Of a stretch of 14,716 nucleotides of DNA, positions 1-14,716 are shown piece after piece (position 1 is the first letter of the stretch; each line of letters starts with the position of its first letter). Source of the DNA: Actinomycetota bacterium. GTDB lineage: Bacteria; Actinomycetota; Acidimicrobiia; Acidimicrobiales; Ilumatobacteraceae. The stretch covers positions 1 through 14,716 of the forward strand of contig WLEX01000008.1 in assembly GCA_009704065.1 (NCBI GenBank). The letters are read 5' to 3'. A program made the position numbers and the translations under genes. Under the pieces are notes generated by a model. The model had not been told where the DNA came from and did not search any database. It worked only from the letters and a program-made list of their open reading frames with translations.

Positions 1-2
1 CG

Positions 3-386
3 TGGTTTTGGGTACCAAAACTGATGTGGAAACCAATCAGTGTTACTGCCTACATCGTTGCCGGAGAAGCAGTCATCCGAATCACAACGACCGCGACACC
101 CACCAACGTTGTGTACTCGCCTGGTGATGGAAATGAGCCCGTGATATGTCGTGGTCCAGGTACACCGTGGACCTCCTCGAATGGAGACAACGACACCAGT
201 TCGTGCATGTACACCTATCGGTCCGCGTCTCATACTCAGCCTTCTGGCGTATACAAAAGCAAGACCTCCATTGAATGGAAAATCACGTGGACCTCAAATT
301 TGGGCGCTCGAGGCAATCTGGGAACCATTCGATTGGGTCTGAACTCCAATGTCCGTGTGCTCGAGATGCAAGCATTGTCTCGTTGA
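3..386 (+). CDS. C-terminal fragment of a secreted protein family of unknown function (5' end outside window)
   Basis: The reading frame is open to the left edge, so only the last 127 residues are seen; the Met codon at 24 is internal. The pattern is a tryptophan-rich start (W-F-W-V-P-K-L), then W-x-P-I-S-V-T-A, a GDG turn, a cysteine before G-P-G-T-P, a second cysteine before a Tyr-rich strand, a Q-P-x-G-x-Y turn, and W-x-I-T-W followed by V-R-V-L-E-M-Q near the end. From memory this resembles the C-terminus of Streptomyces secreted or membrane-associated proteins often annotated as 'ATP/GTP-binding protein', although nothing here binds nucleotide. The fold looks like a PKD-type beta sandwich with one possible disulfide. 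The function is unknown. The next gene starts 46 bases downstream on the same strand. Confidence 0.6.
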   Translation, partial: WFWVPKLMWKPISVTAYIVAGEAVIRITTTATPTNVVYSPGDGNEPVICRGPGTPWTSSNGDNDTSSCMYTYRSASHTQPSGVYKSKTSIEWKITWTSNLGARGNLGTIRLGLNSNVRVLEMQALSR

Positions 387-432
387 CCGCAATTGGCAAT
401 ATCCTCGTGCGGTACCCCTGAAAGGCCACATC

Positions 433-996
433 ATGAATGACGACAAAGATCGCTTCCTCCTCGACCGCCGCTACACAGCAGCTTTCGAGAATCTTGAAGA
501 CAGCACAATCGCCACCCTTGCTCTTCAACTCGAAGGCGACCTTCGTGATGGTTTCGCTCGCATCGTCGGACTTTCTGCTGCAGCGTTTGATGATCAGGCA
601 TCACTCGGAGGACTTATCCGTGAAGGCATCGCAAAACGTCGCGTGGCCCACGATTCCGGAGTTGTATTGGCCGAGCCATGCACACAATGGACTATTGAAA
701 AATTGGGCGATTCATCGGAAGACCCCACTCTCGAAGAACTTCACGCTGTCTTGCCAGAGGCAACAGAGAAATTTGGTATGGATGCAGTGCGCCTGATGGT
801 CATTCAGTACTCACGTTCTCTTAAGGGTTTCCGTCAATTAGTAGCAACCGATGAGCGGTTCGCTCCATCGGGAAGCGCACCTGGTATTACCGTTCTCGAA
901 AAAGACGAAGCCGAACAAGCAGCAAAGCGTGAAGCACGCAAGGCGCGTAAAGCGGAAGAAAAAGCAGCCAAGGCTAAGCAGCAAGGAAAGCGCTAG
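433..996 (+). CDS. Hypothetical protein, 187 aa, with a Lys/Ala/Glu-rich C-terminal tail
   Basis: I do not recognise this protein. It starts with M-N-D-D-K-D-R-F at 433, preceded by GAAAGG at 420-425 with a 7-base gap. An upstream in-frame ATG at 349 would overlap the previous gene and is less likely. There is no signal peptide or membrane segment, so it is probably cytoplasmic. The first roughly 150 residues look like a mixed helical domain with two cysteines at most. The last roughly 35 residues are an alternating Lys/Arg, Ala and Glu segment (E-A-E-Q-A-A-K-R-E-A-R-K-A-R-K), probably one long helix of the kind that contacts nucleic acid or ribosomes. Its stop codon overlaps the stop codon of the convergent phosphofructokinase gene. 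Confidence 0.7.
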   Translation: MNDDKDRFLLDRRYTAAFENLEDSTIATLALQLEGDLRDGFARIVGLSAAAFDDQASLGGLIREGIAKRRVAHDSGVVLAEPCTQWTIEKLGDSSEDPTLEELHAVLPEATEKFGMDAVRLMVIQYSRSLKGFRQLVATDERFAPSGSAPGITVLEKDEAEQAAKREARKARKAEEKAAKAKQQGKR

Positions 997-2027
997 CCGA
1001 AAAATACGGTTGCCACATTGTCGTATAGCGACAAGTCGACATACCGAGTTTTCCCCACCATGTCATGAAGTGGAACGGTGACTATGTCGTCGCCTTTCAC
1101 AGCAACCATCGATGCTTCAACCCCTTCGTGCAGAGCAGTCACTGCTGCCACTCCGAGGCGGGTGCATAACACTCGATCGAATGCTGCGGGTGTGCCACCA
1201 CGTTGCACATGCCCAATTTGCACCACACGTGTTTCAAATCCAGTGCGTTGAAAAAGTTCGCGTGCAACTTCGACACTGATGCCACCCAACCGATGACGAC
1301 CATATGGGTCGAGATCGTATTGCGGCATTGGCATTGTTCCTTCCGCAGGCATAGCTCCTTCAGCAACCACAACAATGGAAGCAAATTTTCCACGCGCGTG
1401 TTTGCGCTTGACTGCTTCAGCGATGTATTCAATATTGAACGGCCGTTCAGGAATAAGAACTGCCGTCGCTCCACCAGCAATACCGGCATATGTGGCAATC
1501 CATCCGGTATCGCGACCCATTACTTCAACAACCATGATTCGGTCATGACTTTCGGCTGTGGTGTGTAACCGATCAATTGCATCGGTAGCAGTCTGTACGG
1601 CAGTGTGAAAACCAAAACACACATCGGTTCCTTCAACGTCATTATCGATAGTCTTGGGAACTCCGAGAACGTTGATACCCACCTCATCGTGCAGTCGTGA
1701 TGCGACGGTGAGAGACCCATTGCCACCAATCACGATGAGAGCATCAATCGACATGATGTTCATCACTTCACGAACTCGTTGCGGCCCACCGTCTGTGTCG
1801 TAGGGGCTACCTCGGCGGGTGCCCAGAATTGTTCCCCCATGCGGCAAGGTGCCGCGCATTGTTTCCACAGTGAGTTCCATGCTGCGCATTTCCAGCACAC
1901 CATCCCACGCATCCAGAAAACCCACCACCGTGTCGCCATGATCGTTGATTGCTTTACGCACCACTGCACGAATGACTGCGTTTAGACCGGGGCAATCTCC
2001 CCCACCAGTTAAAACTCCAATGCGCAT
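993..2027 (-). CDS. pfkA: 6-phosphofructokinase, actinobacterial type
   Basis: It phosphorylates fructose 6-phosphate to fructose 1,6-bisphosphate in glycolysis, in the cytoplasm. The 344-residue protein opens with M-R-I-G-V-L-T-G-G-G-D-C-P-G-L-N-A, the nucleotide/phosphate-binding loop. It has GGNGS at 101-105, P-K-T-I-D-N-D at 124-130 with the catalytic Asp, M-G-R-D-T-G-W at 170-176, and Q-R-G-G-T-P near the C-terminus. Gly104 with a Lys just before T-I-D-N-D is, from memory, the mixed 'X' pattern seen in actinobacterial ATP-dependent enzymes; PPi-dependent ones carry Asp at position 104. Asn at 103 in place of the usual Asp or Glu is odd. The ATG at 2027 is preferred because it gives the family's usual start; a GTG two codons upstream (2033) is possible. 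It lies 40 bases downstream of the MOSC gene and is probably the last gene of that transcript. Confidence 0.93.
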   Translation of the reverse strand: MRIGVLTGGGDCPGLNAVIRAVVRKAINDHGDTVVGFLDAWDGVLEMRSMELTVETMRGTLPHGGTILGTRRGSPYDTDGGPQRVREVMNIMSIDALIVIGGNGSLTVASRLHDEVGINVLGVPKTIDNDVEGTDVCFGFHTAVQTATDAIDRLHTTAESHDRIMVVEVMGRDTGWIATYAGIAGGATAVLIPERPFNIEYIAEAVKRKHARGKFASIVVVAEGAMPAEGTMPMPQYDLDPYGRHRLGGISVEVARELFQRTGFETRVVQIGHVQRGGTPAAFDRVLCTRLGVAAVTALHEGVEASMVAVKGDDIVTVPLHDMVGKTRYVDLSLYDNVATVFFG

Positions 2028-2067
2028 GGGCACACGCTAACCACGGAAAAGTACAGGAGTTCTCTAT

Positions 2068-2907
2068 TTACAGAAAAGTAAGTTCATCATCTAACGAAAT
2101 GGAACCAGGTGTTGTTATTCGTGCGTACACCCCGACCGCTTGATTCAGATCTCGCACCACGTGGCGCAATATGTTGCGGTCTTCGGGAATGTTGTCGTTG
2201 ATACGCCGAGTAATCATGATGCATCGCGGACACGGATCGAGAAACTCAATGACTGTAGTGCCAATGCGTGCAGTGCGACCTTTCCACGAGAACTCAATAT
2301 GTCCTTCGTGATGTTGGGTTTCAACCACAATGCTCGGCCTGAATCGCAATACATCAACAACAGAATCAGGCAATGCTTCCTGCAGTGCTGTTAACGCAGA
2401 TGTAGTCATCACCATGAGTGGCCAGCAATCGTGGTGTGTTCCGGGTGGTGATTCAAATTCACCCACTTCAGGTGGGAATACGGAGAAGTCAGGAAGCGGT
2501 TCATCTTCGGCACGACCAAAAATTCCGCGCAACTCCGTCATAACATCTGCTGAGTCAGCTGCGCCACGACGAAAGTGTTCAATGTTGCCCGAGGCAGGCA
2601 AAGATTCAAGTGTCACCGAATGGTGCAATGCTTCAGAGAGTGCGGTGTGCACGTTTTCATCGCTGCTAAGAATCTCGGAACCGTTTGGCAAGGTGATCAC
2701 AACATGATTGCTCTGATCTCCGATGGGACGTGCAGTGAATTGCATGAGATCACCAATTTTTTTAGCACCCCGAATACCACCGCGTTCGTTGTCGCGAATG
2801 GCCCAGTGACGATCGCCCACAATTCCGAGTTCCGATACACCTATTGATGGGACCTGAACCCCCACCATTGATTTCACGGGGTAGGTCCATAGTTGTGACA
2901 CCCTCAT
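2068..2907 (-). CDS. MOSC domain-containing protein (mARC/YcbX-like)
   Basis: This 279-residue protein has the two-part layout of the family. The N-terminal MOSC beta-barrel domain covers about residues 1-115, with Y-P-V-K-S at 9-13 and G-D-R-H-W at 31-35. The MOSC domain follows to the end, with R-F-R-P at 188-191 and D-P-C-P-R-C at 224-229. In this family the second cysteine of that motif (Cys229 here) is the proposed ligand of the molybdenum cofactor; the proteins reduce N-hydroxylated compounds or deliver sulfur. The substrate here is unknown. It is probably cytoplasmic. It starts 9 bases after the NfuA-like stop codon, which suggests co-transcription and fits a shared theme of sulfur and metal-cofactor chemistry. 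I see no strong Shine-Dalgarno sequence. Confidence 0.88.
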   Translation of the reverse strand: MRVSQLWTYPVKSMVGVQVPSIGVSELGIVGDRHWAIRDNERGGIRGAKKIGDLMQFTARPIGDQSNHVVITLPNGSEILSSDENVHTALSEALHHSVTLESLPASGNIEHFRRGAADSADVMTELRGIFGRAEDEPLPDFSVFPPEVGEFESPPGTHHDCWPLMVMTTSALTALQEALPDSVVDVLRFRPSIVVETQHHEGHIEFSWKGRTARIGTTVIEFLDPCPRCIMITRRINDNIPEDRNILRHVVRDLNQAVGVYARITTPGSISLDDELTFL

Positions 2908-2916
2908 GACGAATGC

Positions 2917-3567
2917 TCAGCTGTAATAAGGGTTTGAACCCGTTGCATGATCGGTGATGTCACGCACTTTGACAACGCCAGGAACTTGTTCAATCAAGGT
3001 GGTCTGCACACCATCGAGCATGGTCATCTTGCTCATGGAGCAGCCATGGCAACCGCCACCCATGGTGAGGTAGGCAACGCCTTCAGTGTCGTGACCGACG
3101 AAAGTAACAAAGCCACCATGTGCAGCAAGTGATGGATTGACATCAACAGAAATAACAGCCTCGATAGATGCCGACAATTCGTCATCGTTAACAAGACCCT
3201 CGATCATTGCAACCGGCGGTTTGTTGGGGTTACGAATGATGAGACCTTGACGCTCGGAATAATCGAGAGTGGCACCATTGATGTGTTCGAAACTTGCAAG
3301 CGGGATGATGACTTTCAGTCCTTCAATCGTGCGCACTTCATCAGAGAACGCGGCCTGCGTCACAATCTCGAAAGATAAGTCGTACTTGAATTCTTCGCCA
3401 GGAGCCGCCATCACTTCGAGACGAAGTCCAAGGCGCTCTTTTTCTGGTTCTTCATCACGAAGAATCTTGAGTTGCACAAGTGCTTCCTCAGTGATTTCGA
3501 TAATGGTGTCGGTGCTGTCGGGGGCAAGTGGGCTCACGATGTGAAGGCTATCTACTGACGGGGGCAC
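2917..3567 (-). CDS. nfuA: NfuA-like Fe-S cluster carrier (degenerate IscA-like domain plus NifU C-terminal domain)
   Basis: The protein is about 216 residues. Residues 22-115 resemble the A-type (HesB/IscA) domain but lack all its cluster-binding cysteines, as in E. coli NfuA. Residues 125-205 are a NifU C-terminal domain with G-G-G-C-H-G-C-S-M-S; Cys173 and Cys176 (CxxC) are the only cysteines in the protein and would hold a [4Fe-4S] cluster bridging a dimer. The role is transfer of Fe-S clusters to client enzymes in the cytoplasm. No ATG is available near the 5' end. The choices are TTG at 3570, GTG at 3567 or GTG at 3537, and 3567 is a compromise. It follows the SDR gene by about 20 bases and precedes the MOSC gene by 9, so it probably sits in one operon. 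It looks slightly longer than the E. coli protein because of an N-terminal extension. Confidence 0.9.
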   Translation of the reverse strand: MPPSVDSLHIVSPLAPDSTDTIIEITEEALVQLKILRDEEPEKERLGLRLEVMAAPGEEFKYDLSFEIVTQAAFSDEVRTIEGLKVIIPLASFEHINGATLDYSERQGLIIRNPNKPPVAMIEGLVNDDELSASIEAVISVDVNPSLAAHGGFVTFVGHDTEGVAYLTMGGGCHGCSMSKMTMLDGVQTTLIEQVPGVVKVRDITDHATGSNPYYS

Positions 3568-3586
3568 CAAACACGGTGGTGCGCAA

Positions 3587-4375
3587 CTACTGCCCTACCC
3601 GGAGGTTCGAGCCTCCACCATCGACCTGGATTCGTTGTCCGGTGATGTACGAGGCAGCTGGAGAACAGAACCACAACACAGCATTAGCAATGTCTTCAGG
3701 CTGGCAGACCCTGCCGAAGGGGGCATCACTATCCATTGAACGTAGGTCGTCCATTTCGCGTCGGCCCGTGATGGCTCGAGCTAAGCGCACACCCATATCG
3801 GTCTCCACCAACCCCGGCGCCACGATGTTGACGCGGATATTGTTCGGTCGTTCTTCCTTTGCCAAAGTAAGTGCCAGTGCTTCCATTGCTGCTTTGCCCA
3901 TGTTGTAGGGAGCACCATTTGCCGACATGCCTGAAGTAGCAACAGATGAAATGAATACGATGTCACCGCGATCTCGTGCGCGCATGGACGGCAACAGTGC
4001 CCGACACAATTGATGAGGCCCAAGCGCGTGGGTGGCCACTAACTGCCACAACTCTTCAGCTGTTGTATCGGCAACGCTTCGACCTTTAGATGCGATGCCC
4101 CCATTGAGCACTGCAATATCAATGCCGCTGTGCACTGACAAAATATCTTGCACCATCGCAACATTTTCTTCAGGAATATCATTTGCTCCCTGATGAATGG
4201 TGGCCAGTCCACCCGCATCGATAATGGTGCGCATTGTTTCTTCAGCAGCTTCTTTATTGCGGTGGTAGTTGATTGCAACTGTCGCACCTTCTGCTGCAAG
4301 CGCGAGTGAAATCGCTTTACCGATTCCGCGTCCTCCGCCAGTGACCAATGCAATTCGTCCGTCTAAAACGCCCAT
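3587..4375 (-). CDS. Short-chain dehydrogenase/reductase (SDR family, FabG-like)
   Basis: An NAD(P)-dependent oxidoreductase of the classical SDR type, 262 residues with a Rossmann fold. T-G-G-G-R-G-I-G at 12-19 binds the cofactor. The active site shows Ser in F-I-S-S-V (about 143-144), Tyr157 and Lys161 in Y-N-M-G-K. P-G-L-V-E-T-D and the C-terminal I-Q-V-D-G-G-G are also typical. The usual N-N-A-G structural motif reads L-N-G-G. The substrate cannot be told from sequence. The start at 4375 is chosen because GGGGGA stands just ahead of it; an upstream ATG at 4387 in the same frame has no ribosome binding site. It is the first gene of a four-gene minus-strand cluster and diverges from the CDF transporter gene. 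Confidence 0.92.
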   Translation of the reverse strand: MGVLDGRIALVTGGGRGIGKAISLALAAEGATVAINYHRNKEAAEETMRTIIDAGGLATIHQGANDIPEENVAMVQDILSVHSGIDIAVLNGGIASKGRSVADTTAEELWQLVATHALGPHQLCRALLPSMRARDRGDIVFISSVATSGMSANGAPYNMGKAAMEALALTLAKEERPNNIRVNIVAPGLVETDMGVRLARAITGRREMDDLRSMDSDAPFGRVCQPEDIANAVLWFCSPAASYITGQRIQVDGGGSNLRVGQ

Positions 4376-4441
4376 AGTTTCCCCCATATGTTTCTGACCG
4401 TGAATGCCACATTTGCGGCCTCACTATGACAACCTAGACCC
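4376..4441. promoter_or_regulatory. Divergent intergenic region, presumed promoters for the SDR cluster and the CDF gene
   Basis: These 66 bases separate two divergent start codons, so both promoters should lie here or run into the coding ends. On the minus strand TTGTCA (4427-4432) is followed after 17 bases by TGGCAT, a fair -35 with a poor -10. On the plus strand TATGAC at 4425-4430 sits very close to the CDF ATG, which would leave almost no leader. Neither is convincing alone. Confidence 0.3.
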
Positions 4442-5359
4442 ATGAATGAAGGCAGTCGTAAGGCAATCATCGCGGCGTTTTTCGCCAACCTCGGAATCGC
4501 TATCTCTAAATTTGTCGGCTTTCTCATTACAGGGTCAGCCGGATTAGCAGCAGAGGCCGTCCATTCCTTTGCTGACACGGGAAATCAAGGGCTTCTCATG
4601 CTGGGAGCCAAGCGCTCAGTGAAGGCGCGAGACGAAGAACATCCATTCGGCCACGAACGTGAGCGCTACTTCTGGGCATTCATTGTGGCACTCGTATTGT
4701 TCAGCATGGGTGGCCTCTTTGCTCTGTACGAAGGCATACATAAATTTCGTAATCCTCATGAGACGGACAACATTGGAATTGCCGTTGGAATTCTGATTGT
4801 GGCAATTCTTCTCGAGTCCTATTCCCTACGAACAGCCATCAAAGAAACTGCTCATGTGAAATCGCCTGATCAGAGTTACTGGCAATTTATTCGCTCGGCA
4901 AAGCAACCAGAACTCCCCACCGTTTTGCTCGAAGATGTTGCAGCAGAAACCGGCCTCTTGTTTGCTCTCGCTGGCGTCCTTCTTGCCCACTACACACATG
5001 AACCACGATGGGATGCAGTGGGTTCCATTGCCATTGGACTTCTTCTTGTGGTTGTTGCCTTCATTCTCGGTGCAGAGATGAAAGGTCTCCTTATGGGTGA
5101 GACGGCCTCACCCGAGACTCGACTCGCACTGGCCAAAGCACTTCGTGATCACCCTCATGTGCAAGAAGTTATTTACTTGCACACAGAGCACTTAGGCCCC
5201 GACGCCCTTCTCGTTGCAGCGAAAGCCATTTTTAGTCCCACATTGTCGGCAGCAGACGTAAGCCGCAGCATCGATGAAGCAGAAGTAGAGATGCGACGGG
5301 CAGTGCCGAGCGCGCGATTCATCTTTATTGAACCCGACATTGCCCGCACTGGCATATAA
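4442..5359 (+). CDS. Cation diffusion facilitator family transporter
   Basis: A 305-residue inner-membrane metal-ion/proton antiporter of the CDF family (Zn2+ or another divalent metal). About six membrane helices are visible in two blocks, residues 8-30 to 118 and 160-215. The metal site of helix 2 is H-S-F-A-D (His41, Asp45). The helix 5 counterpart is L-L-E-D-V-A-A-E-T-G at 162-171. The loop motif E-H-P-F-G-H-E-R-E-R-Y-F-W-A-F (66-80) is typical of the subgroup related to human SLC30A9. A cytoplasmic C-terminal domain of about 80 residues follows, ending in the F-I-F-I-E-P-D strand. I see no good Shine-Dalgarno sequence ahead of the ATG. It is followed after 21 bases by the TPP riboswitch, but nothing ties its function to thiamine. 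Confidence 0.9.
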   Translation: MNEGSRKAIIAAFFANLGIAISKFVGFLITGSAGLAAEAVHSFADTGNQGLLMLGAKRSVKARDEEHPFGHERERYFWAFIVALVLFSMGGLFALYEGIHKFRNPHETDNIGIAVGILIVAILLESYSLRTAIKETAHVKSPDQSYWQFIRSAKQPELPTVLLEDVAAETGLLFALAGVLLAHYTHEPRWDAVGSIAIGLLLVVVAFILGAEMKGLLMGETASPETRLALAKALRDHPHVQEVIYLHTEHLGPDALLVAAKAIFSPTLSAADVSRSIDEAEVEMRRAVPSARFIFIEPDIARTGI

Positions 5360-5360
5360 C
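5355..5360 (+). promoter_or_regulatory. Possible -10 box for the thiamine operon
   Basis: TATAAC overlaps the stop codon of the CDF gene and lies about 25 bases upstream of the riboswitch aptamer, the right place for a dedicated promoter. No -35 box at normal spacing is evident (TTGAAC at 5328-5333 is 21 bases away). Read-through from the CDF gene is the alternative. Confidence 0.3.
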
Positions 5361-5380
5361 CTCAGACGTACAACCAAACA

Positions 5381-5466
5381 ATGGGGAGCTCGCGCGATCG
5401 GCGGGCTGAGAGGGTCACTGCGGTGACCGACCCACAACCTGATCTGGATAATGCCAGCGGAGGGAA
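5381..5466 (+). ncRNA. TPP riboswitch (THI element)
   Basis: All the conserved blocks of the thiamine pyrophosphate aptamer are present. GGGG is at 5383-5386 and CTGAGA at 5406-5411. A perfect variable hairpin has arms at 5413-5418 and 5423-5428. ACCTGATCTGG is followed by ATAATGCCAGCG, and the element closes with GAGGGAA. CUCGC near 5389-5393 can pair with GCGGG just before CTGAGA to form the P3 stem, and CUGG with CCAG forms P4. The 3' end contains GGAGGG (5459-5464), which is also the ribosome binding site of the kinase gene 7 bases downstream, and no U-tract hairpin follows. Control is therefore inferred to be at translation initiation: TPP bound, operon off. The outer P1 pairing looks weak by eye. 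Confidence 0.96.
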
Positions 5467-5471
5467 ACAAC

Positions 5472-6116
5472 ATGGCTTTCACGCACGCAATCATTTTCAC
5501 TGGCGGCGACCCACCACATCCCAATGTTGTGAAACATCTTGATAGAGATGCGCTCGTTATCGCAGCCGATTCTGGTTATACCCATGCGCAATCACTCGGC
5601 ATGCAACCACATCTTCTGGTGGGTGACATGGACTCCATTTCACCGGCAGATATTGCAGACGCACAAGCGCGCAGTGTGGAGATTCACGCGTACAACACAG
5701 CCAAAGATGAAACCGACACAGAAATTGCCGTCTCTGGTTCAATCGAGCGTGGCATTACTGACATCACAGTCGTATCGGGTGGAGGCGACCGCTTCGACCA
5801 TCTCTTGGGCATGGTGCATTCGCTAGCCACCTCACATTGCACTCTTTACTTAGGAAAAGCACATGTGCAATTTGCTCAACAAGACTTACCGCGCACACTT
5901 TCGGTCTCTATTGGTGACGTGGTTTCACTCATACCATTGGGTGGATCGGCTCGCATTTCCACTACCGGCCTGCAATGGAATTTGTGCGACGAGGACCTAC
6001 ATGCATTCGCATCTCGTGGTGTGAGCAATATCGCCACCCACCCATCCGTTGATGTCGTCGTTACTCGCGGCTCAGTAGCAATTATCCAGCCAAATTTCAT
6101 TGAAGGAACACAATGA
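5472..6116 (+). CDS. thiN: Thiamine diphosphokinase (thiamine pyrophosphokinase)
   Basis: It transfers pyrophosphate from ATP to thiamine, giving TPP and AMP, in the cytoplasm. The 214-residue protein has the family motifs in order: A-D-S-G at 32-35, V-G-D-M-D-S at 50-55 (metal/ATP binding), K-D-E-T-D-T-E at 78-84, G-G-G-D-R-F-D-H at 103-110, then the C-terminal thiamine-binding beta domain with G-L-Q-W-N-L. The start at 5472 is fixed by GGAGGG seven bases upstream; an in-frame ATG at 5451 lies inside the riboswitch and is not credible. It is the first gene of the operon and overlaps the next gene by ATGA. Its pairing with an uptake system indicates salvage of external thiamine. Confidence 0.95.
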   Translation: MAFTHAIIFTGGDPPHPNVVKHLDRDALVIAADSGYTHAQSLGMQPHLLVGDMDSISPADIADAQARSVEIHAYNTAKDETDTEIAVSGSIERGITDITVVSGGGDRFDHLLGMVHSLATSHCTLYLGKAHVQFAQQDLPRTLSVSIGDVVSLIPLGGSARISTTGLQWNLCDEDLHAFASRGVSNIATHPSVDVVVTRGSVAIIQPNFIEGTQ

Positions 6117-7105
6117 AACGATTCATCTTTCTCATCACTGCAGTGGTCGCATTGTCATCATGCACTTCCGCTGCAACTGAAACTGCCCAAGAAAAAACTA
6201 CAACTCTCACGCTTCTGGCCTACGACGCATTTACGCCAGAGCCAGGCATTTTTGATTCGTTTACTAACGACACAGGTATTGCCGTAAAAATTGTGACGGG
6301 TGGAGATTCAGGCGTACTGATTTCTAAAGCGATTCTTACTGCGGGGAAGCCTGAAGGAGACGTGCTGTGGGGTGTTGACAACACAATGCTGTCGCGAGCG
6401 CAGCAAGCGTCACTCCTCACAAGTTATGAACCAGTCGATATCGGAGACATTTGTTTAAATGCCGATACAGACTGGTTTGCAAGTAGGAATCTTGCCATAC
6501 CTACTCGGCTAGAAGATTTAGTGCTCCCCCAATATCGGGGTCTAGTTGTCACTCAAGATCCTGTTGCTTCATCACCTGGTCTTGGTTTTCTACTCGGAAC
6601 CATTGCTCACTTCGGAGAAGGAAAATGGCAGAAGTATTGGTCAGCGTTACAAAGTAACGGTGTTCATATTGCCCCCGATTGGACTACTGCATACACCATT
6701 GATTTTTCCGGAGGTTCTGGCAACGGTAAATACCCCCTTGTTGTGAGCTACGGCTCTAGTCCACCTGCCGAAGTTCTCTATGCAGACCCATCAGCGCCGA
6801 TAACTGAACCAACAACCTCTGTCATTGAGTCATCTTGTTTCCGTCAAACTGAATACGTTGGTGTTCTGCGAGGAAGCAAACACATCACGGCTTCTCAGCA
6901 ATTGATTTCCTTTCTGTTAGGAAAGAAATTTCAAGAGTCCATGCCCCTTTCACTATTCGTTTTCCCCGTGAACCCAGATGCAACATTGCCGGACCTATTC
7001 ACCAAATTTGCCGTGCGTGCAAAAACACCACTCACTATTAGTCCTCAAGACATAGAAAAGAACCGAGAAAAATGGCTGAACGAGTGGAGAGCACTACTGC
7101 TATGA
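6113..7105 (+). CDS. thiB: Thiamine ABC transporter, substrate-binding lipoprotein (ThiB-like)
   Basis: A 330-residue extracytoplasmic solute-binding protein, about the length of E. coli ThiB. The N-terminus is a signal peptide with the lipobox A-L-S-S-C, so Cys17 should be lipidated and the protein tethered to the outer face of the membrane. Family landmarks are T-L-L-A-Y-D-A-F at the start of the mature domain, the D-N-T-M-L-S region, Q-D-P-V-A-S-S-P-G-L-G-F, D-W-T-T-A-Y-T-I-D-F-S-G-G-S-G, and L-V-V-S-Y-G-S-S-P-P-A-E-V. Together these are specific for the thiamine branch rather than the iron or spermidine branches. It starts inside the stop of the kinase gene (ATGA), implying translational coupling, and ends with the same overlap into the permease. 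Confidence 0.94.
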   Translation: MKRFIFLITAVVALSSCTSAATETAQEKTTTLTLLAYDAFTPEPGIFDSFTNDTGIAVKIVTGGDSGVLISKAILTAGKPEGDVLWGVDNTMLSRAQQASLLTSYEPVDIGDICLNADTDWFASRNLAIPTRLEDLVLPQYRGLVVTQDPVASSPGLGFLLGTIAHFGEGKWQKYWSALQSNGVHIAPDWTTAYTIDFSGGSGNGKYPLVVSYGSSPPAEVLYADPSAPITEPTTSVIESSCFRQTEYVGVLRGSKHITASQQLISFLLGKKFQESMPLSLFVFPVNPDATLPDLFTKFAVRAKTPLTISPQDIEKNREKWLNEWRALLL

Positions 7106-8640
7106 CCATGCGACGACTGCTATCTGTTTTCCCAATCGGATTCGTAGTCGTCTTTCTCGTTCTGCCTTTTTTCAATTCGGTTGCATCATTCTTCAGTCTG
7201 AGCACTACTCGAGAAGTCTTATCAAACTCCTCCATGCTTGGCATTGTGTGGTTTTCACTATGGCAAGCCATGTTGTCTGTGGTCGCCACAATGATTGTTG
7301 CCTTCCCCGCTACATGGGCATTGTCACGTTTCCAATTTCGAGGAGCACAGCTGTGCCGGGGCCTACTGACAACACCTTTTGTTTTGCCTTCAATCGTTGT
7401 AGCTGCAGGGGTGCTTGCCATCACACATCGCACTGGAGTCGTGTCGATTTTGTGGGCTCATGTGGTTTTTAATGTGGCGGTGGTGCTGCGCCTAGTAGGT
7501 CCTCGCTGGTCACTGTTACATCCGAAATACGAAGAATCAGCTGCCACTTTGGGATCTTCGCCTCTGCGGACTTTTGTTTACGTTGTGTGGCCCACTATCC
7601 GCACAACAGTCCGATCAGCGGCAGCACTTGTATTTGCATATTGCTTCACATCATTTGGTGTGATCTCTATTGTGGGCGGATTTTCTCGGCGCACCTTAGA
7701 AACAGAAATATTCACTCAATCTGTGCGACTAGGCAACATGGATGTCGCTATTTCTCTAGCAATTATCCAAATGATTGTTGTGTTGTTGGTATTCCAAATA
7801 TCTCGTCCATCTGTGCAACAAACATCGTCTATAAATGTGGTGGCTACCCCGACTGCACTGAATGTGAAGACACGAGGAAGATGGATTGTGTTGGTATCGG
7901 TTGTTGCACCCACGCTCATAGTGACTCTTCCCCTTCTTGCCACCTTGATGCGATCTATCTCGTATCGAGGGCAGCTCTCTCTTCATGCGTGGAGCACCGT
8001 ACTTAGCGGGACATTGCCTCGACTCAACGTCTCTACCTGGAAAGTGATGGGCACTTCACTTGTGTTTTCGCTTGCCACTGCATTTCTCGCAGTTTCGCTC
8101 GCTCTCATCGCTTCACAACAAATGAGTGGTAATCATTTTCAATATTCATCGCAACATCGCGTACTACGCCTTATCACTTCTCTGCCAATCGTTGTATCGG
8201 CCGCAACGCTCGGTCTCGGACTTGTCACTACATTCAATAAAGACCCATTTGCATGGCGTAGCCATACCTGGCTTATCCCGGTTATTCATGCAGTCATAGC
8301 TCTACCAATTGCGATTCGCATCCTAGAACCAGCAATACAAGCAATACCCCTGACCTTGCGCGACAATGCGGCAACTTTGGGTGCCACACCATGGCAAACA
8401 TGGTTGCACGTAGACGTTGCACTACTCCGTCCTGCTTTGCTACGTAGCTTCGGCTTTGCAGCAACCATCTCTTTAGGTGAATTTGGTGCAACTTCTTTTC
8501 TCACTCGATCGGATTCCACCACGATGACTATGGCTATTTCTCAACTTCTTGGCCGCCCCGGCGCCATTACCCAACAATCGGGATACGTATTGGCTTCGGT
8601 GCTTATTGTTCTTACCGTGGGAATATCTAGCCGTGCTTAA
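7102..8640 (+). CDS. thiP: Thiamine ABC transporter, fused permease (ThiP-like)
   Basis: A 512-residue membrane protein with roughly twelve hydrophobic helices, made of two fused permease halves as in E. coli ThiP. Each half has its EAA coupling loop, where the ATPase docks: Y-E-E-S-A-A-T-L-G-S-S-P in the first half and R-D-N-A-A-T-L-G-A-T-P in the second. The second half also shows S-L-G-E-F-G-A-T-S, typical of this group. The start at 7102 is preferred because its ATG overlaps the thiB stop (ATGA) and GGAGAG lies about 10 bases upstream; an in-frame ATG at 7072 would overlap thiB by 34 bases. The 3' end overlaps the ATPase start. Confidence 0.93.
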   Translation: MTMRRLLSVFPIGFVVVFLVLPFFNSVASFFSLSTTREVLSNSSMLGIVWFSLWQAMLSVVATMIVAFPATWALSRFQFRGAQLCRGLLTTPFVLPSIVVAAGVLAITHRTGVVSILWAHVVFNVAVVLRLVGPRWSLLHPKYEESAATLGSSPLRTFVYVVWPTIRTTVRSAAALVFAYCFTSFGVISIVGGFSRRTLETEIFTQSVRLGNMDVAISLAIIQMIVVLLVFQISRPSVQQTSSINVVATPTALNVKTRGRWIVLVSVVAPTLIVTLPLLATLMRSISYRGQLSLHAWSTVLSGTLPRLNVSTWKVMGTSLVFSLATAFLAVSLALIASQQMSGNHFQYSSQHRVLRLITSLPIVVSAATLGLGLVTTFNKDPFAWRSHTWLIPVIHAVIALPIAIRILEPAIQAIPLTLRDNAATLGATPWQTWLHVDVALLRPALLRSFGFAATISLGEFGATSFLTRSDSTTMTMAISQLLGRPGAITQQSGYVLASVLIVLTVGISSRA

Positions 8641-9274
8641 AGTGAACAATCTCTGTGTGTCTTACACCGACCAGCAAATAGTTTCTGGACTTTCATTTGA
8701 AGTACCTACTGCAACCACTTTGACAATCACTGGGCCATCGGGTGCAGGCAAGAGCACAGTATTGAAAGCAATATGTGGCCTAGTGAGAACTTCAAGTGGA
8801 TCAGTCTTTATTGACAATCGCGACATCACACAACTTCCCACCCATCGTCGAGGCATTGGACTTGTGACGCAAACCAATGACTTATTTCCTCACCTCACTG
8901 TTGCGCAAAATATTGCATTCGGATTACGGATGAACGGTGCATCGAATCGAGAAATGTCAGATCGTGTTCGAGAAATGTTGAACGTAGTTGGTCTCGCGAA
9001 CTTTGCTGATCGCGATATCAACTCGCTCTCTGGCGGCGAGGCCCGACGCATTGCGCTGGCAAGGTCTCTTGCTCCGTCACCAAAAATTCTGCTACTTGAC
9101 GAACCTTTTACTGGCCTCGACGATGAGATACGCATCTCCCTCATGTACCAGACAAAGGCCATTCTTGCTTCATCATCCATGACGTCGATCTTGGTGACGC
9201 ATGATCATTCGGAAGCAGAATTTTTCTCCACGTCGGCACTCTCATTACCACCCCCAGTCGAACCCTCCCTGTAA
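8633..9274 (+). CDS. thiQ: Thiamine ABC transporter, ATP-binding protein (ThiQ-like)
   Basis: A 213-residue ABC ATPase that powers the ThiP-like permease from the cytoplasmic side. Visible motifs are Walker A G-P-S-G-A-G-K-S-T at 34-42, Q-loop Gln80, signature L-S-G-G-E-A at 132-137, Walker B I-L-L-L-D-E-P at 152-158, D-loop G-L-D-D and the switch His190 in V-T-H-D-H. The start is taken as GTG 8633, which overlaps the permease stop by 8 bases and puts the domain at its normal distance from the N-terminus; GTG 8642 is an alternative. The C-terminus is odd: after S-E-A-E-F-F the expected strand is replaced by a Ser/Pro-rich end, and another frame stays open beyond it (see findings). It is the last gene of the operon. 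Confidence 0.92.
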   Translation: MLKVNNLCVSYTDQQIVSGLSFEVPTATTLTITGPSGAGKSTVLKAICGLVRTSSGSVFIDNRDITQLPTHRRGIGLVTQTNDLFPHLTVAQNIAFGLRMNGASNREMSDRVREMLNVVGLANFADRDINSLSGGEARRIALARSLAPSPKILLLDEPFTGLDDEIRISLMYQTKAILASSSMTSILVTHDHSEAEFFSTSALSLPPPVEPSL

Positions 9275-9319
9275 GGGCCATCCACGCTTTGCAAACAATT
9301 CCGTTTGCATTCAGAAACG

Positions 9320-9389: not shown

Positions 9390-10634
9390 TTAGTCCTTAG
9401 ACGCCTGACTGCGTCGAACGAGGTACGCAATAACTGCAACCGCGATTAACGCAATGATGATCCAGAGGATCGGTGAAGATCCACTGCTGTCATTGCTAGG
9501 AGCATCTGTGCCTGAAGCAACCGTGGTTTCAGTTCCTGCAGCAACGGTTGTGTCTGACGCAGCAACGGTGGTGTCTGACGACGCAGCAGGAGCAACCATT
9601 GCGCTACTTGCCTTCGCAGAGGCACGCTTCACAGGCACTGTGATCTCCTTGGTCTTTCCACCGGCTGCAACCGTGAAGACAAGAGTCGAGGCATCAGCAC
9701 CCAATGGCACAGAATTAGCACCTGTCAAGAGAACTGCAGGCCCACCATTAACGCTGACGGAAACTTCACCATTTGGCAATCCTGCAGCTGCTGCCATACC
9801 GGCAACGCACGCTTCCCGACATGTGAAGTCTTTGCCCTTATCATCAACAAGTACTTCAGTTGGCGGCGCGACTGGCAACGGTGTGTTGTCAGCCACTGTG
9901 GTCGTTGTGACTTCTGCAGGCGTTGCTGGTTCTGTCGTAGGAGTTGAAGGATTTGCCTTGACGCGAACTTCAGTGTCGTCCATGTCAGCGCCGTAATACC
10001 CAGCCCACCAGCAGCCATCTTGGCCGCCGTCTGTATATCGCACCGAGCGTGCACCCGTTGAGTACCCAGTAAATGTGACTGAGTGCTGTACCCATGACTG
10101 ATCTACCCAGTCAGACTCGTGCACATACTGGAGATTTCCTTCATCACCAATGTTCTTGGTGTCAAGCACATTGCCTTCAGCGTCGAGAAGCTCAGCGCGC
10201 ATGAAGAAACGGCCACCACAACGGCCGTTGAACCAGGTGCTCACGGAGATATCCGGAGATGTATCGAGATATGAATCTCCTTCTGCACTGAGACTGACAG
10301 TTTGGCTGCGAGTTCCCAGCCAATATGAAGTGGCCGCAATGGCTGTTCCACTACGTGGACGCTGCCACTCGCCACCTTCGTATCCGAAGCCATTCCCAAC
10401 ATAGACGTCACCTGTGTACGACCAGCCTGTAGTTCCTTCTTCGTTACTTGGGTTAACTACAAGGTTTGGACCGAATGTGGCACTCGAGGATGACACTTCG
10501 TTGCTCGTTTCATCCCCTGGCTGAGTAATCGCAGAGTTTCTTTGTCTGTTTTCAGATTCAGATTGAGAGCACGATGCGAAGATCAGTGCACTCGCTACCG
10601 CAAACGCGGCGAGTATTTTTGTGTTTTGTTTCAT
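9390..10634 (-). CDS. Surface lipoprotein with FBA-like (galactose-binding-fold) domain and C-terminal membrane anchor
   Basis: A 414-residue exported protein. Residues 1-22 are a signal peptide ending I-F-A-S-C, a probable lipobox (Cys22; Phe at -3 is unusual). After a Ser/Asn/Glu-rich linker, residues 57-225 (9960-10466) form a domain resembling the eukaryotic F-box-associated domain: N-L-V-V-N-P, E-G-D-S-Y-L-D-T, P-D-I, H-S-V-T-F-T-G-Y and D-G-G-Q-D-G-C-W-W. Cys139 and Cys208 may form a disulfide. A Thr/Pro linker (227-262) leads to a beta-rich segment (263-337) with Cys272 and Cys276. A low-complexity D-T-T-V-A-A stretch follows, then a membrane helix (388-406) and a basic tail. The start has AAAGG five bases upstream. 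It is paralogous to the large protein at 11477 across the FBA-like domain. The function is unknown; glycan or surface binding is inferred from the fold only. Confidence 0.85.
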   Translation of the reverse strand: MKQNTKILAAFAVASALIFASCSQSESENRQRNSAITQPGDETSNEVSSSSATFGPNLVVNPSNEEGTTGWSYTGDVYVGNGFGYEGGEWQRPRSGTAIAATSYWLGTRSQTVSLSAEGDSYLDTSPDISVSTWFNGRCGGRFFMRAELLDAEGNVLDTKNIGDEGNLQYVHESDWVDQSWVQHSVTFTGYSTGARSVRYTDGGQDGCWWAGYYGADMDDTEVRVKANPSTPTTEPATPAEVTTTTVADNTPLPVAPPTEVLVDDKGKDFTCREACVAGMAAAAGLPNGEVSVSVNGGPAVLLTGANSVPLGADASTLVFTVAAGGKTKEITVPVKRASAKASSAMVAPAASSDTTVAASDTTVAAGTETTVASGTDAPSNDSSGSSPILWIIIALIAVAVIAYLVRRSQASKD

Positions 10635-10800: not shown

Positions 10801-11430
10801 ATGCAAGTCCCCAAGAAGAAACGCCAGGATGGCCTAGCGACCATGCAAATTCTTCTCGACGCAGCCGTCATCGAACTGGAGGCCCAGGGAGAAACTGGGT
10901 TTGACATGGATGCAGTTCTTGCCCAAACAGGAGTGGCTCGAAGTTCTCTCTATCACCACTTCACAAACAAAAATGGGTTGATCGCTGCAGCAGAGATTGA
11001 AATTGTTCGACTCACAATGCATAAAGAGAATGTCGCTCAGCGCCAACTGTATGAGCAAACCACATCGTTTGAGCAGCTTTTCGACATCGTGTCACTCTTT
11101 ATGCGTGCTGATAGCACCGATCGCGGAATAGATGTTCGTCGCAGTCGTTCACGCTTAATGACTGCTGCATTACACAATAAAAAAGTTGCTGAGGCAATTA
11201 CTGAAGCACAGCGCAGTGAATCGCGCTACTACGCCGAAAGTATGGAAATCGCCCAGAAAAATGGCGTCATCCGAAAAGACATTGACACATTGGCAGTTTC
11301 CTATTGGATTCAAGGCCAGTTTTTCGGACGCATTTTGCTCGACATAGCGGAAGAAGATGACGAGGTCGCACGACAATGGGTAGAGACTTCATTAGTTGCA
11401 CTAAAAGCAGTGCTGTCGCCAAATAATTAA
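10801..11430 (+). CDS. TetR/AcrR family transcriptional regulator
   Basis: A 209-residue DNA-binding protein. Residues 15-62 form the TetR helix-turn-helix: I-L-L-D-A-A...F-D-M-D-A-V-L-A-Q-T-G-V-A-R-S-S-L-Y-H-H-F-T-N-K, with the recognition helix at S-S-L-Y-H-H-F. The rest is an all-helical ligand and dimerisation domain; the sequence gives no clue to the ligand. A basic N-terminal stretch (K-K-K-R) may add DNA contacts. It diverges from the FBA-like lipoprotein gene and converges on the large FBA-like gene, so control of the lipoprotein and of itself from the shared 166-base upstream region is a reasonable inference. Confidence 0.92.
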   Translation: MQVPKKKRQDGLATMQILLDAAVIELEAQGETGFDMDAVLAQTGVARSSLYHHFTNKNGLIAAAEIEIVRLTMHKENVAQRQLYEQTTSFEQLFDIVSLFMRADSTDRGIDVRRSRSRLMTAALHNKKVAEAITEAQRSESRYYAESMEIAQKNGVIRKDIDTLAVSYWIQGQFFGRILLDIAEEDDEVARQWVETSLVALKAVLSPNN

Positions 11431-11476: not shown

Positions 11477-14400
11477 TCACGAATTAACTGTGGAAACTGC
11501 TGGAACATACACACCGTACGATTCGGCTGAAGTGTTCGATGTCCCATCTGAGTTGACGGCACTCACACGGAAGTAATACGTGCGACCACCAAGTAAACCG
11601 CTAATAGATGTCGATGTGTTAGTGCTCACACCATCGTTGTACACGCTGAATGAACCACCACTTGAAGTGGCGTACTCCACAATGTAATCAGTGATTGCAG
11701 TTCCGCCGTTAAGACCGGCCGCTGCCCAGGAGAGTTCAGCTTGGGAAGCACCTGTGTGTGAAGCCTGTCGGACCTTCACACTGGTGTCGTCCATTGCCGC
11801 ACCGTAATAGCCCCACCACCAACAGGTGTCTTGGCCGCCATCGGTATAACGAACCGAACGCACTCCCGACGAGTACCCAGTGAAACGTAATGTGCGTTTG
11901 GTCCACACACCGTCGACGCCTGTAATTAAGGAATTTTCAGATCCATAATTTTGTGTTGCCAGAACATTGCCAGCATTGTCTAACAACTCGGCTCTCATAA
12001 AAAACTGTCCACCGCAACGGCCATTAAACCAAGTACTCGCTTCAATATCAGGCGAAGTGTCGAGATATGTGGTGGTTTCAGATGCAAGGCTTACTGTCTG
12101 AGTTCTTGTGCCCAATGTGTAAGAGGTCGACACCGAGTTAGTATCCGAATGCGGACTGTTCCATTCAGGACCCACATACCAATCACCTGTGTATGTCCAG
12201 CCTGTTGTGCCCGACTCTGCTCCTGGGTTCACGACTAGGTTCGCACCAAGGAATGCGCTTTCAGCGCTAATTGATGTGGGCGCACTTGGCAATAACGCAG
12301 TGGGAATCGCAGAAGCATTTGTGCTCCAAGATGTTGTACCAACTTGAGGAGACAAAGAGTTGTTCCATCCAGCTACTCGAACGTAATACGTTGTGCCGTT
12401 TACTAACCCTGAAATGTTGTAGGTGGTATTGGTGGTACCCGTGTACGTGTAACTCGCATTCCATGTCGAATCTGTTCCCCACCAAATTTGGTAATTGTCG
12501 CCGCCATGTTCTACTGCGCCCCACGAGACATTTATTTGACCATTGCTTCCTGAGATTGATGTGATCACAGGTGCTGGAGCCAACGGCGTGATAGCTGACG
12601 TTTCTGTACTACCAACACCAGATCCAGCAGCATTGACTGCAGACACCGTGAAGTAATACGCCACCCCATTTGTTAATCCGGTGATTGTTGCTGTACGAGA
12701 TGTTGAAGCACCATCGTTAAAGATCGAGTATGGCCCGCCACTGGTTGTTGAGTACTTAATGATGTAATCAGAAATTGCGGCACCGTTCGTTGAGCTTGGT
12801 GCATTCCAAGTGAGTGAGACTTGGCCGTTACCACTACTGGTGCCAACAGATAACGGTTGAGTGGGTGTACTAAATGAACGAACAGGTCGGACATTGAAGC
12901 CGTAATTCTTTCCCCAGTTGTCATTGGAATTTGTGGCGAATGACCAGTTACGTGCTTGAGAAGCAGAGTTCTGAGTCGAACTCCAGTAGGTGGTCGTTGA
13001 TATTCCCGTTGATACTTGAGTACCAGCCTTAAACCCACCAATTTCTAGACGTTGCGCATACATCTGCAGCAGTTCGTCTATGGATGGCAAAAACCAGTCT
13101 GAGAATCCGCCACCGTCATATGCGATGGCCCTGTCAGATGCTCCCGAGACACACGACGAGGCGACCACTGCCGTATTCGCTTTGCCCGAACCGATTGACG
13201 TTCCAGTGGAACCTGCGATAGAGCTAGAGGAGTTGTTACACCACGCGATGTTTGGATCAGCGCCACCATTCCAATTGTTGGGCGCTGCCTCGAAATACTG
13301 CCCGCTTGAATTGCCATTCGTCGAAGGCGTGATGAAGATGATCCCTCCACCTGGACCAATATCACCAACAGCGCATGTTCCAGAACATGGCTGAGCAGGA
13401 GTTACTGCTCCGGTTGAACTGGAGTACACCCCGGTTCCACCAGAATTCTTGGCCGCAACCTTGAAATAGTAAGTCACTCCATTTGTCAGACCAGTCACAG
13501 TGGCGGTGGTGTTCGTAGAGACACCATCATTAAAGACTGTGTACGAACCGTTTGCGGATTGCGAATACGAAACCACATAGTCAGAGATAGCGGCACCACC
13601 AGCTGATGTGGGCACATTCCATGTGAGCGACACAGCGTTAGTGCCTTTGGTTGCCGACACTGACAGCGGCGCACTCGGCGTTGCTGCTTGAGGCGCGAGC
13701 GTGGTGGTGGTCGTAGTCGAAGTTGTTGTCGTTGTTGTCGTTGTCGTTGTCGTTGTTGACGTCGTAGTAGTAGTCGGCGGAATAGTCGATGTTGTTGTTG
13801 TCGTAGTAGTAGTCGGCGGAATAGTCGATGTCGTCGTAGAAGTCGTAGGTGGAACCGTCGTTGTCGTTGTCGTTCTCGGAATAGTCGTAGTTACAGGCGG
13901 AACAGTGGTTGTAGTCGTTGTCGTAGTAGTTGTTTTAGGAATAGTCGACGTAGTAGTTGAGGTCGTTGTCGTTGTTTTTGGAATAGTTGTAGTAGTTGTT
14001 GAAGTTGATGTAGTCACTAATGGTTTTTGGTACCGGAACGGCTGCCTCATCCCCGCCTTTAGTGAAGGTCGATAAATAGCTAAAGAGTGATCACCCTCCT
14101 CAAGATCATCGGGCAAGGTTGCAGTAATTCGCACGGTTCCACCGCCGTCGGCTTTGACCGTCGACAACACCCGCGGCGTAGAGGCAACAACCAGTTGCAC
14201 CCATTCACTTGGTCTAAATCCTGAATATTGCACAGCGATTGGCCCGCCCGGTTGAACATCATTCAGAGTTGCCAATGGTTCTTGCGGGTTCACCATTGCA
14301 AAGCTCATCACGGCCGACTCGGAGGGAGGGTCTGGAGGGGGTGCTTGTTGCTCAACAATAGAAAAATCTCGCTGCGCTGCCGGCGGCAAGTCACCCTTAG

Positions 14401-14716
14401 TTGCAGCTGATGCAAGTTCTGGCACCAGTTCAGCCGTTGCTTTCTTATTATCTAAAACACCCGCTTCAGTTTTCACTACTTTTGTTCCGTCAGTCTTTAC
14501 CACTGTCGTTTCAATGAGATTGTTACCTATTTGCTTTGCTATTTCGTACTTAGCTCCAGACGACCCACCGGGAGCTTCACTTGTACGAATCTCAAAAGAT
14601 GGTGCATCCTTGGTGGTGGTGACTTCAATTTTTGCACCGTCAGCAGCGACCAACTGGACCGTAATACCTTTGCTTGACGAAGTGAGAGCGTTTTCAGAAC
14701 CAGTTGAAGTAGCTGC
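11477..14716 (-). CDS. Large secreted multidomain protein: Thr-rich stalk, fibronectin III repeats, Lcl-C (DUF1566) domain and FBA-like domain (N-terminus outside window)
   Basis: The frame is open to the right edge, so about 1079 residues of the C-terminal part are seen; the TTG at 14653 is probably internal. In reading order: a beta-rich region with a Lys/Thr-rich repeat feel; an Ig-like segment (about 14025-14290) with Y-S-G-F-R-P-S-E; a Thr-rich stalk (13693-14020); fibronectin III (about 13400-13690); an Lcl-C/DUF1566 domain (about 12871-13395) with G-P-G-G-G, D-W-F-L-P-S-I-D-E-L, Y-W-S-S-T and V-R-P-V-R; two more fibronectin III domains (about 12588-12865 and 12290-12585); and an FBA-like domain (about 11768-12243) that appears inserted in a fourth fibronectin III domain. 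It ends without a membrane helix or sorting motif. Secretion is inferred from composition and domains. A role in adhesion or recognition is likely but unproven. Confidence 0.88.
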   Translation of the reverse strand, partial: AATSTGSENALTSSSKGITVQLVAADGAKIEVTTTKDAPSFEIRTSEAPGGSSGAKYEIAKQIGNNLIETTVVKTDGTKVVKTEAGVLDNKKATAELVPELASAATKGDLPPAAQRDFSIVEQQAPPPDPPSESAVMSFAMVNPQEPLATLNDVQPGGPIAVQYSGFRPSEWVQLVVASTPRVLSTVKADGGGTVRITATLPDDLEEGDHSLAIYRPSLKAGMRQPFRYQKPLVTTSTSTTTTTIPKTTTTTSTTTSTIPKTTTTTTTTTTVPPVTTTIPRTTTTTTVPPTTSTTTSTIPPTTTTTTTTSTIPPTTTTTSTTTTTTTTTTTTSTTTTTTLAPQAATPSAPLSVSATKGTNAVSLTWNVPTSAGGAAISDYVVSYSQSANGSYTVFNDGVSTNTTATVTGLTNGVTYYFKVAAKNSGGTGVYSSSTGAVTPAQPCSGTCAVGDIGPGGGIIFITPSTNGNSSGQYFEAAPNNWNGGADPNIAWCNNSSSSIAGSTGTSIGSGKANTAVVASSCVSGASDRAIAYDGGGFSDWFLPSIDELLQMYAQRLEIGGFKAGTQVSTGISTTTYWSSTQNSASQARNWSFATNSNDNWGKNYGFNVRPVRSFSTPTQPLSVGTSSGNGQVSLTWNAPSSTNGAAISDYIIKYSTTSGGPYSIFNDGASTSRTATITGLTNGVAYYFTVSAVNAAGSGVGSTETSAITPLAPAPVITSISGSNGQINVSWGAVEHGGDNYQIWWGTDSTWNASYTYTGTTNTTYNISGLVNGTTYYVRVAGWNNSLSPQVGTTSWSTNASAIPTALLPSAPTSISAESAFLGANLVVNPGAESGTTGWTYTGDWYVGPEWNSPHSDTNSVSTSYTLGTRTQTVSLASETTTYLDTSPDIEASTWFNGRCGGQFFMRAELLDNAGNVLATQNYGSENSLITGVDGVWTKRTLRFTGYSSGVRSVRYTDGGQDTCWWWGYYGAAMDDTSVKVRQASHTGASQAELSWAAAGLNGGTAITDYIVEYATSSGGSFSVYNDGVSTNTSTSISGLLGGRTYYFRVSAVNSDGTSNTSAESYGVYVPAVSTVNS
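11768..12243 (-). other. FBA-like domain region of the large secreted protein
   Basis: About 159 residues beginning G-A-N-L-V-V-N-P and ending D-D-T-S-V-K-V. They align over their whole length with residues 57-225 of the lipoprotein encoded at 9390-10634, sharing for example L-D-T-S-P-D-I, S-T-W-F-N-G-R-C-G-G, F-F-M-R-A-E-L-L-D and R-S-V-R-Y-T-D-G-G-Q-D. The lipoprotein version has an extra roughly 10-residue Gly-rich loop near Y-V-G. DNA identity is clearly lower than protein identity, so the duplication is not recent. Confidence 0.75.
13693..14020 (-). repeat. Low-complexity hexanucleotide repeat coding for the Thr-rich stalk
   Basis: On the plus strand this is imperfect (cgttgt)n with interruptions such as cggaatagt. 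On the coding strand it gives runs of Thr from alternating ACG and ACA/ACT codons, broken by recurring S-T-I-P-P, T-I-P-K and T-V-P-P units. Such repeats change length by slippage; the frame stays open throughout. The product is expected to be an extended stalk and a likely target for O-glycosylation. Confidence 0.85.

Follow-up and report, generated by a model that had tools for sequence, protein, structure and literature searches.

Two neighbouring genes in the window analyzed here (the whole stretch of 14,716 nucleotides from contig WLEX01000008.1 of an Actinomycetota bacterium) encode probably exported proteins that each carry an F-box-associated (FBA) domain. In animal ubiquitin ligases, FBA domains are known to recognize the core of N-glycans in the cytosol. 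Sequence and profile comparisons indicate that the bacterial domain is homologous to the substrate-binding domain of FBXO2, FBXO6, and FBXO44, and we consider it probable that the two proteins serve as carbohydrate-binding adhesin heads on anchored stalks. The domain match itself is not new to databases, because precomputed Pfam annotations exist for these bacterial proteins; the present analysis adds the pairing of the two FBA genes, the pattern of conserved cysteines, and the modular context.

An FBA domain in a bacterial protein

An earlier note, made by reading the translation, had assigned residues 57 to 225 of the smaller protein (positions 9960 to 10466) to the FBA domain, and the motifs on which it relied are legible: NLVVNP, NEEGTTGW, SYWLGTRSQTV, LDT, PDISVSTW, NGR, AELLD, HSVTF, YSTGARSVR, and GGQDGCWWAGYYGA. 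The assignment held: FBA was ranked first by Pfam, PDB sequence search, profile-profile comparison, Foldseek, and VIA-align, and we encountered neither a missing FBA match nor another family that matched clearly better. In Pfam, PF04300 matched residues 53 to 225 with 68.3 bits (cut-off, 32.4; E = 9e-19) and profile positions 5 to 175 of 175, the sole other row up to E 10 being a subthreshold EssA match in the C-terminal tail. A phmmer search of the PDB returned eight FBXO2/FBXO6/FBXO44 chains (best E = 6.8e-16), with the following row at E 0.48; when a profile of six bacterial domains was used, these eight were found again, with E values from 1.6e-20 to 1.7e-18. Profile-profile comparison of the bacterial alignment with 11 FBXO-type rows gave a probability of 99.6 (E = 1.2e-23) over 163 columns. 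A hidden Markov model (HMM) built from 11 FBXO-type rows scored the six bacterial domains at 76.0 to 83.2 bits, while shuffled bacterial domains reached 9.1 bits at best (3,000 made, 2,418 reported). An alignment of 13 bacterial with 35 FBXO-type rows has 18 invariant columns. The FBA match of the small protein is not due to chance, which confirms the original observation. The predicted model has the Fbs1-type beta-sandwich fold, with FBA placed first by both structural comparisons, although this fold is not independent of FBXO-type sequences because the alignment used for the model contained such rows. A full-length model from the 24-row alignment A2 (eight PA14-only rows) had a predicted local distance difference test score (pLDDT) of 50.6 and was set aside for fold.

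Fbs1/FBXO2, Fbs2/FBXO6, and FBXO44 resemble the bacterial domain in whole-domain sequence, in fold, and in the aromatics at the positions of Phe177, Tyr279, and Trp280. Unlike them, the small protein lacks the F-box that stands next to FBA in Skp1-Cullin-F-box (SCF) adaptors (Pfam reported no F-box family up to E 10), shows no ubiquitin link, and appears to be exported rather than cytosolic. Its domain is joined to bacterial stalk, stem, and lectin domains, has a pair of cysteines in the pocket loops, and has a beta5-beta6 loop that is two residues shorter and without Asp216. NCCRP1, an animal protein, is intracellular. It likewise has an FBA domain and is described as giving no F-box pattern match (PMC3210139), but the bacterial protein differs from it in being multidomain with a signal peptide.

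Layout of the small protein and its larger neighbour

The small protein is composed of a signal peptide, the FBA domain, a Pro/Thr-rich linker, a two-cysteine stem, and a C-terminal hydrophobic segment, the parts other than FBA having been delimited by eye (Table 1). The earlier note had called it a surface lipoprotein. The signal peptide, the C-terminal hydrophobic segment, linkers rich in Thr and Ser, and partner domains of kinds found in adhesins all support export. Lipidation is plausible but not certain: the lipobox-like motif reads FASC, and leucine is usual at the position where it has phenylalanine.

The second FBA domain lies in a large protein and is 66% identical to the first. PF04300 was also found in two other genomes, G591 (locus L010; Actinobacteria bacterium, LacPavin) and G574 (locus L011; Actinomycetota bacterium F1-20), and both FBA proteins co-occur in all three genomes having them. 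The large proteins of L010 and L011 contain two Lcl_C stretches each (58.5 bits in L010 and 49.9 bits in L011), and that of L010 also has a SUEL_Lectin match (33.2 bits; cut-off, 31.4). The same domain (PF07603/DUF1566) forms the C terminus of Legionella Lcl, where it is described as a glycosaminoglycan (GAG)-binding adhesin domain (PMC11162425); compared with Lcl, the bacterial large protein has FBA as an additional head. The L011 protein (L011:1786-7029) is 1,747 amino acids long with a lipobox-like start, and its N-terminal ~330 residues have no Pfam match, although by eye their Cys and His residues recall a papain-like or transglutaminase-like domain.

Table 1. Features of the FBA locus in window coordinates
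Feature	Position	Strand	Basis or remark
Exported FBA protein	9390..10634	minus	ORF (open reading frame), 414 aa, ATG start
Signal peptide with lipobox-like FASC (Cys22)	10569..10634	minus	By eye; lipidation inferred
FBA domain 1 (PF04300)	9960..10478	minus	Pfam, PDB sequence match, genome profile search, structure model
Stem region, residues 232-345	9600..9941	minus	Sequence comparison with paralogues
C-terminal hydrophobic segment, residues 388-408, then RR	9411..9473	minus	By eye; helix in model
Tyr105, aligned with Fbs1 Phe177, pocket aromatic	10320..10322	minus	Alignment; Fbs1 roles from PMC4603797
Cys140, loop equivalent to beta5-beta6, proposed disulfide partner	10215..10217	minus	Alignment
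Cys209, loop equivalent to beta9-beta10, proposed disulfide partner	10008..10010	minus	Alignment
Trp210-Trp211, aligned with Fbs1 Tyr279-Trp280, pocket aromatics	10002..10007	minus	Alignment
Large surface protein, fn3 domains and FBA domain 2	11477..14716	minus	Pfam; 5' end beyond contig
FBA domain 2 (PF04300)	11771..12250	minus	Pfam, 57.5 bits
Lcl_C-like region	12878..13129	minus	Pfam 29.3 bits, below 34.9 cut-off
Thr-rich repeat linker	13722..14002	minus	Sequence
TetR-family regulator between the two FBA genes	10801..11430	plus	Alike ORF there in L010 and L011 (by eye)
Flanking ABC (ATP-binding cassette) importer: binding protein, permease, ATPase	6113..9274	plus	Pfam/ORF annotation

The putative sugar pocket and a conserved cysteine pair

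Phe177, Tyr279, and Trp280 of Fbs1 are reported to make essential hydrophobic contacts with the two N-acetylglucosamines of GlcNAc-GlcNAc (PMC4603797). We compared these positions in 20 bacterial rows, of which two are fragments that lack the first half. P0024 and P0028 have identical domain sequences, as do P0006 and P0008, so not every row is independent. At the Phe177 position, 16 of the 18 rows with letters there have Tyr and 2 have Phe; the Tyr279 position is occupied by Trp in 18 and Phe in 2 of the 20 rows, and the Trp280 position by Trp in all 20. Aromatics of the sugar-binding Fbs1/Fbs2 type are therefore present at all three positions.

The bacterial domains also harbor two cysteines, at domain positions 89 and 158 (residues 140 and 209), which are found in all 18 rows spanning both (16 distinct sequences), and there is no further cysteine in these domains. 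Only 1 of the 119 FBXO-type rows with letters at both positions has the pair (the set comprised 122 rows from 120 proteins among the matches listed, the best 120 of 586). In our own residue numbering the two positions align with Ala217 and Val278 of Fbs1, adjoining Gly218 and Ser277, which are described as hydrogen bonded together in Fbs1 (PMC4603797). A Cys140-Cys209 disulfide tying the beta5-beta6 and beta9-beta10 loops is plausible and would be suited to the cell exterior.

We propose that the two exported proteins would each present an FBA domain outside the cell, the small one close to the membrane on its stem and C-terminal segment and the large one on an fn3/Thr-rich stalk together with further lectin-like domains. 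A sugar would stack on Tyr105, Trp210, and Trp211 in the pocket that tops the beta-sandwich, with two of the pocket loops probably pinned by the disulfide. The likely use would be to attach a planktonic actinobacterium to glycans of eukaryotes or of particles. We regard it as fairly probable that one or both domains bind a sugar. The aromatic stack is conserved while the polar part is not, and specificity likely differs from that of Fbs1. That GlcNAc-containing cores in particular are recognized is rather doubtful.

Besides the dependence of the fold model on FBXO-type rows, several observations count against an adhesin role through sugar binding. The polar contacts of the Fbs1/Fbs2 type (Asp216 and Lys281) are lacking: in each of the six bacterial domains of alignment A1 a deletion of two residues covers the Asp216 position, and at the Lys281 position 8 of the 20 rows have Ala, 8 have Arg, and 4 have Trp. 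The beta5-beta6 loop is thereby shortened, and in Fbs1 replacement of this loop, or of Thr215 by Pro, was reported to lower binding (PMC4603797). Of three alanine changes at glycan contacts in human Fbs1 (Asp154, Asp212, and Lys280), two are reported to have lowered binding (PMC5457524); in our own reading, human Asp212 would correspond to mouse Asp216. FBXO44, which is described as keeping the aromatics yet binding no sugar, has loops that stop the pocket from forming (PMC4603797); like FBXO44, the window copy carries Tyr at position 177 and Ala at position 281. Because FBXO44 also has a tighter tie between the beta5-beta6 and beta9-beta10 loops (PMC4603797), the proposed disulfide could spoil the pocket instead of shaping it. 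Pointing the other way, Fbs1 carrying the beta9-beta10 loop of FBG3 was reported still to bind RNase B (PMC4603797). Finally, no glycoside hydrolase of family GH18 or GH20 was found in any of the three FBA genomes (68 to 82% complete), and chitin as a food is for this reason not favored.

Alternatively, the FBA domain could be an FBXO44-like surface module whose role is to bind proteins or is purely structural, acting in cell-cell or stalk-stalk contact. The loss of the Asp216 position, the two FBXO44-like pocket residues, and the very existence of this fold without sugar binding in FBXO44, as described in PMC4603797, would all fit such a role, as would the adjacency of the two FBA proteins and their joint presence in each genome that has them. 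Against it, aromatic residues persist in the pocket (in the rows compared, Phe177 and Tyr279 are swapped only for other aromatics), and the partner heads are largely lectin-type. We regard a module of this kind as unlikely.

It is very improbable that a bacterial module of the carbohydrate-binding module (CBM) type (CBM4/16/22/61) drifted to an FBA-like sequence with no particular relationship to FBXO proteins. Pfam reported no CBM family up to E 10, the FBA profile was covered as described above, and in VIA-align the Fbs-type chains had 29 to 32% identity over 158 to 168 residues, whereas the other rows shown had 10 to 18%, CBM61 and CBM16 among them with 14 to 15%.

Distribution and evolution

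We surveyed PF04300 in overlapping draws of genomes from the genus, family, order, class, and phylum of the window. It was present in 3 of 32 genomes of the genus and 3 of 221 of the family; the draws of the order (1 of 298), class (1 of 395), and phylum (1 of 296) each contained it only in the window's own genome. We do not claim that FBA is restricted to this genus, because other bacterial phyla were unsampled and 466 of the 586 matches lie beyond the 120 listed; further bacterial FBA proteins may be among those 466. The name of the L010 genome suggests that the window's organism lives in lake water.

In a tree of 18 bacterial and 40 FBXO-type rows, the latter drawn at random from 118 (taken from the best 120 of 586 matches and mostly named vertebrates), the bacterial rows formed one group with a support of 100/100 on a branch of 1.7. 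The tree is silent on the direction of transfer, because its FBXO-type rows are mostly named vertebrates and bacterial phyla beyond that of the window are unsampled. The ratio of nonsynonymous to synonymous changes (dN/dS) was 0.04 to 0.20 for the domain pairs with usable dS (6 of 15 pairs, with dS above 1 in 4 of these 6), and the FBA domains show signs of purifying selection.

Eukaryotic contamination or a chimeric assembly, to which the lack of an FBA match outside one genus among the 221 family genomes might point, is next to impossible given that the FBA pair, the TetR-like ORF, and the ABC transporter occur together in three separately assembled genomes, that the FBA genes have no internal stops, that GC content across the block (0.47 to 0.53) compares with 0.505 for window positions 1 to 9300, and that the FBA domains of the genomes have diverged by a dS of 0.8 or more.

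Genomic setting and modular paralogues

The order of large protein, TetR-like ORF, and small FBA protein beside an ABC transporter is found in L011 and, on a short contig starting inside the large gene, in L010. The block of L011 is flanked on one side by the ABC ATPase gene and on the other by a gene whose translation looks HU-like by eye. We compared eleven further loci of the genus, two picked via PA14 paralogues and nine via the neighbouring permease. Of the latter, four (L041, L042, L044, and L046) have the HU-like gene directly beside the ATPase gene, with 190 to 225 bases between them. By eye, L048 resembles these four in that an antisense ORF of the HU-like kind adjoins the ATPase. L043 breaks off too early, and in L047, L049, and L050 the neighbours differ and the permeases are more distant. 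Since the HU-like gene adjoins the ATPase gene elsewhere, an older gene order seems to have been interrupted by insertion of the FBA block, at least in this part of the genus. Just past the HU-like gene in L046 (L046:2948-8248, G594) lies a 1,767-amino-acid Laminin_G_3/fn3 protein, followed by a TetR-like ORF. The site near the HU-like gene is a possible hotspot for surface-protein genes.

A search for paralogues, which scored the 7,996 candidates sharing most words, found the stem of the small protein in proteins with PA14 in place of FBA (P0017 to P0022, P0025, and P0027) and in proteins with PA14 plus FBA (P0003 and P0004). The signal peptide is also alike among those stem-sharing proteins whose sequences were compared. 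A weaker stem match (27% identity; E = 6e-5) lies at the end of a SUEL-lectin protein of the same genome. The picture suggested is one of surface proteins with exchangeable, largely sugar-binding heads. Locus L003:1-1971 (G000 contig 181), in the same genome, encodes a protein with two SUEL-lectin stretches, fn3, and a stem-like C-terminal region.

Significance of bacterial FBA domains

No paper about a bacterial FBA domain was among the literature matches listed, which agrees with the view of the earlier note that such a module has been little described in bacteria, and a literature search on adhesion of freshwater Acidimicrobiia found nothing. It is conceivable, though again doubtful, that a lake actinobacterial lineage took up an FBA glycan-core lectin, duplicated it, armoured it with a disulfide, and turned it into a surface head reading GlcNAc-containing glycans of algae, protists, or chitin, or else that the eukaryotic domain descends from such lectins. 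If true, a bacterial adhesin would be making use of a sensor domain from eukaryotic quality control, or that domain would itself derive from such surface lectins. Exported bacterial FBA members in adjacent genes with lectin-type heads would widen the known uses of the fold, offer a route to the origin of the domain, and name a testable attachment device in uncultured actinobacteria. They could also yield small glycan binders, possibly stabilized by a disulfide, for use as tools; engineering of Fbs1 to capture N-glycans has been reported (PMC5457524).

Phage and viral look-alikes

A tblastn search with domain 1 gave no phage or plasmid match at E 0.01, no relative of this domain was found in viral contigs, and neither FBA domain matched PHROGs up to E 1. 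At E 10 in phages, domain 2 returned 10 records (best E = 0.6), none at 80% coverage, and domain 1 returned 16 (best E = 0.5), two at 80% coverage or more. One of these two, a weak match (E = 0.5, 82% coverage, 31.5% identity), falls in a minor tail protein of Arthrobacter phage Mimi (MN234211.2:127594-127965). FBA HMMs gave at most 2.1 bits on two phage stretches, and no gene resembling gp53, the protein of a BFVD match, is listed in positions 1 to 50000 (of 73325) of phage EE36phi1. Two candidates were rejected: a protein of phage Lacusarx, to which Pfam assigns F5/8 and not FBA, and the viral-contig match of alignment A1, a short N-terminal motif in an fn3 protein with no Pfam FBA match and 8.4 bits. 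The viral-contig protein L053:4992-6107 has an FBA/CBM-like NLLVNPSAESG start before its fn3 domains but no FBA match in Pfam. In BFVD, folds similar to the FBA model were found with a best template modelling (TM) score of 0.78; five viral proteins with neighbouring accession numbers, A0A346G414, A0A346G422, A0A346G3Y3, A0A346G412, and A0A346G4A3, have folds close to the model (TM 0.68 to 0.78, 16 to 22% identity).
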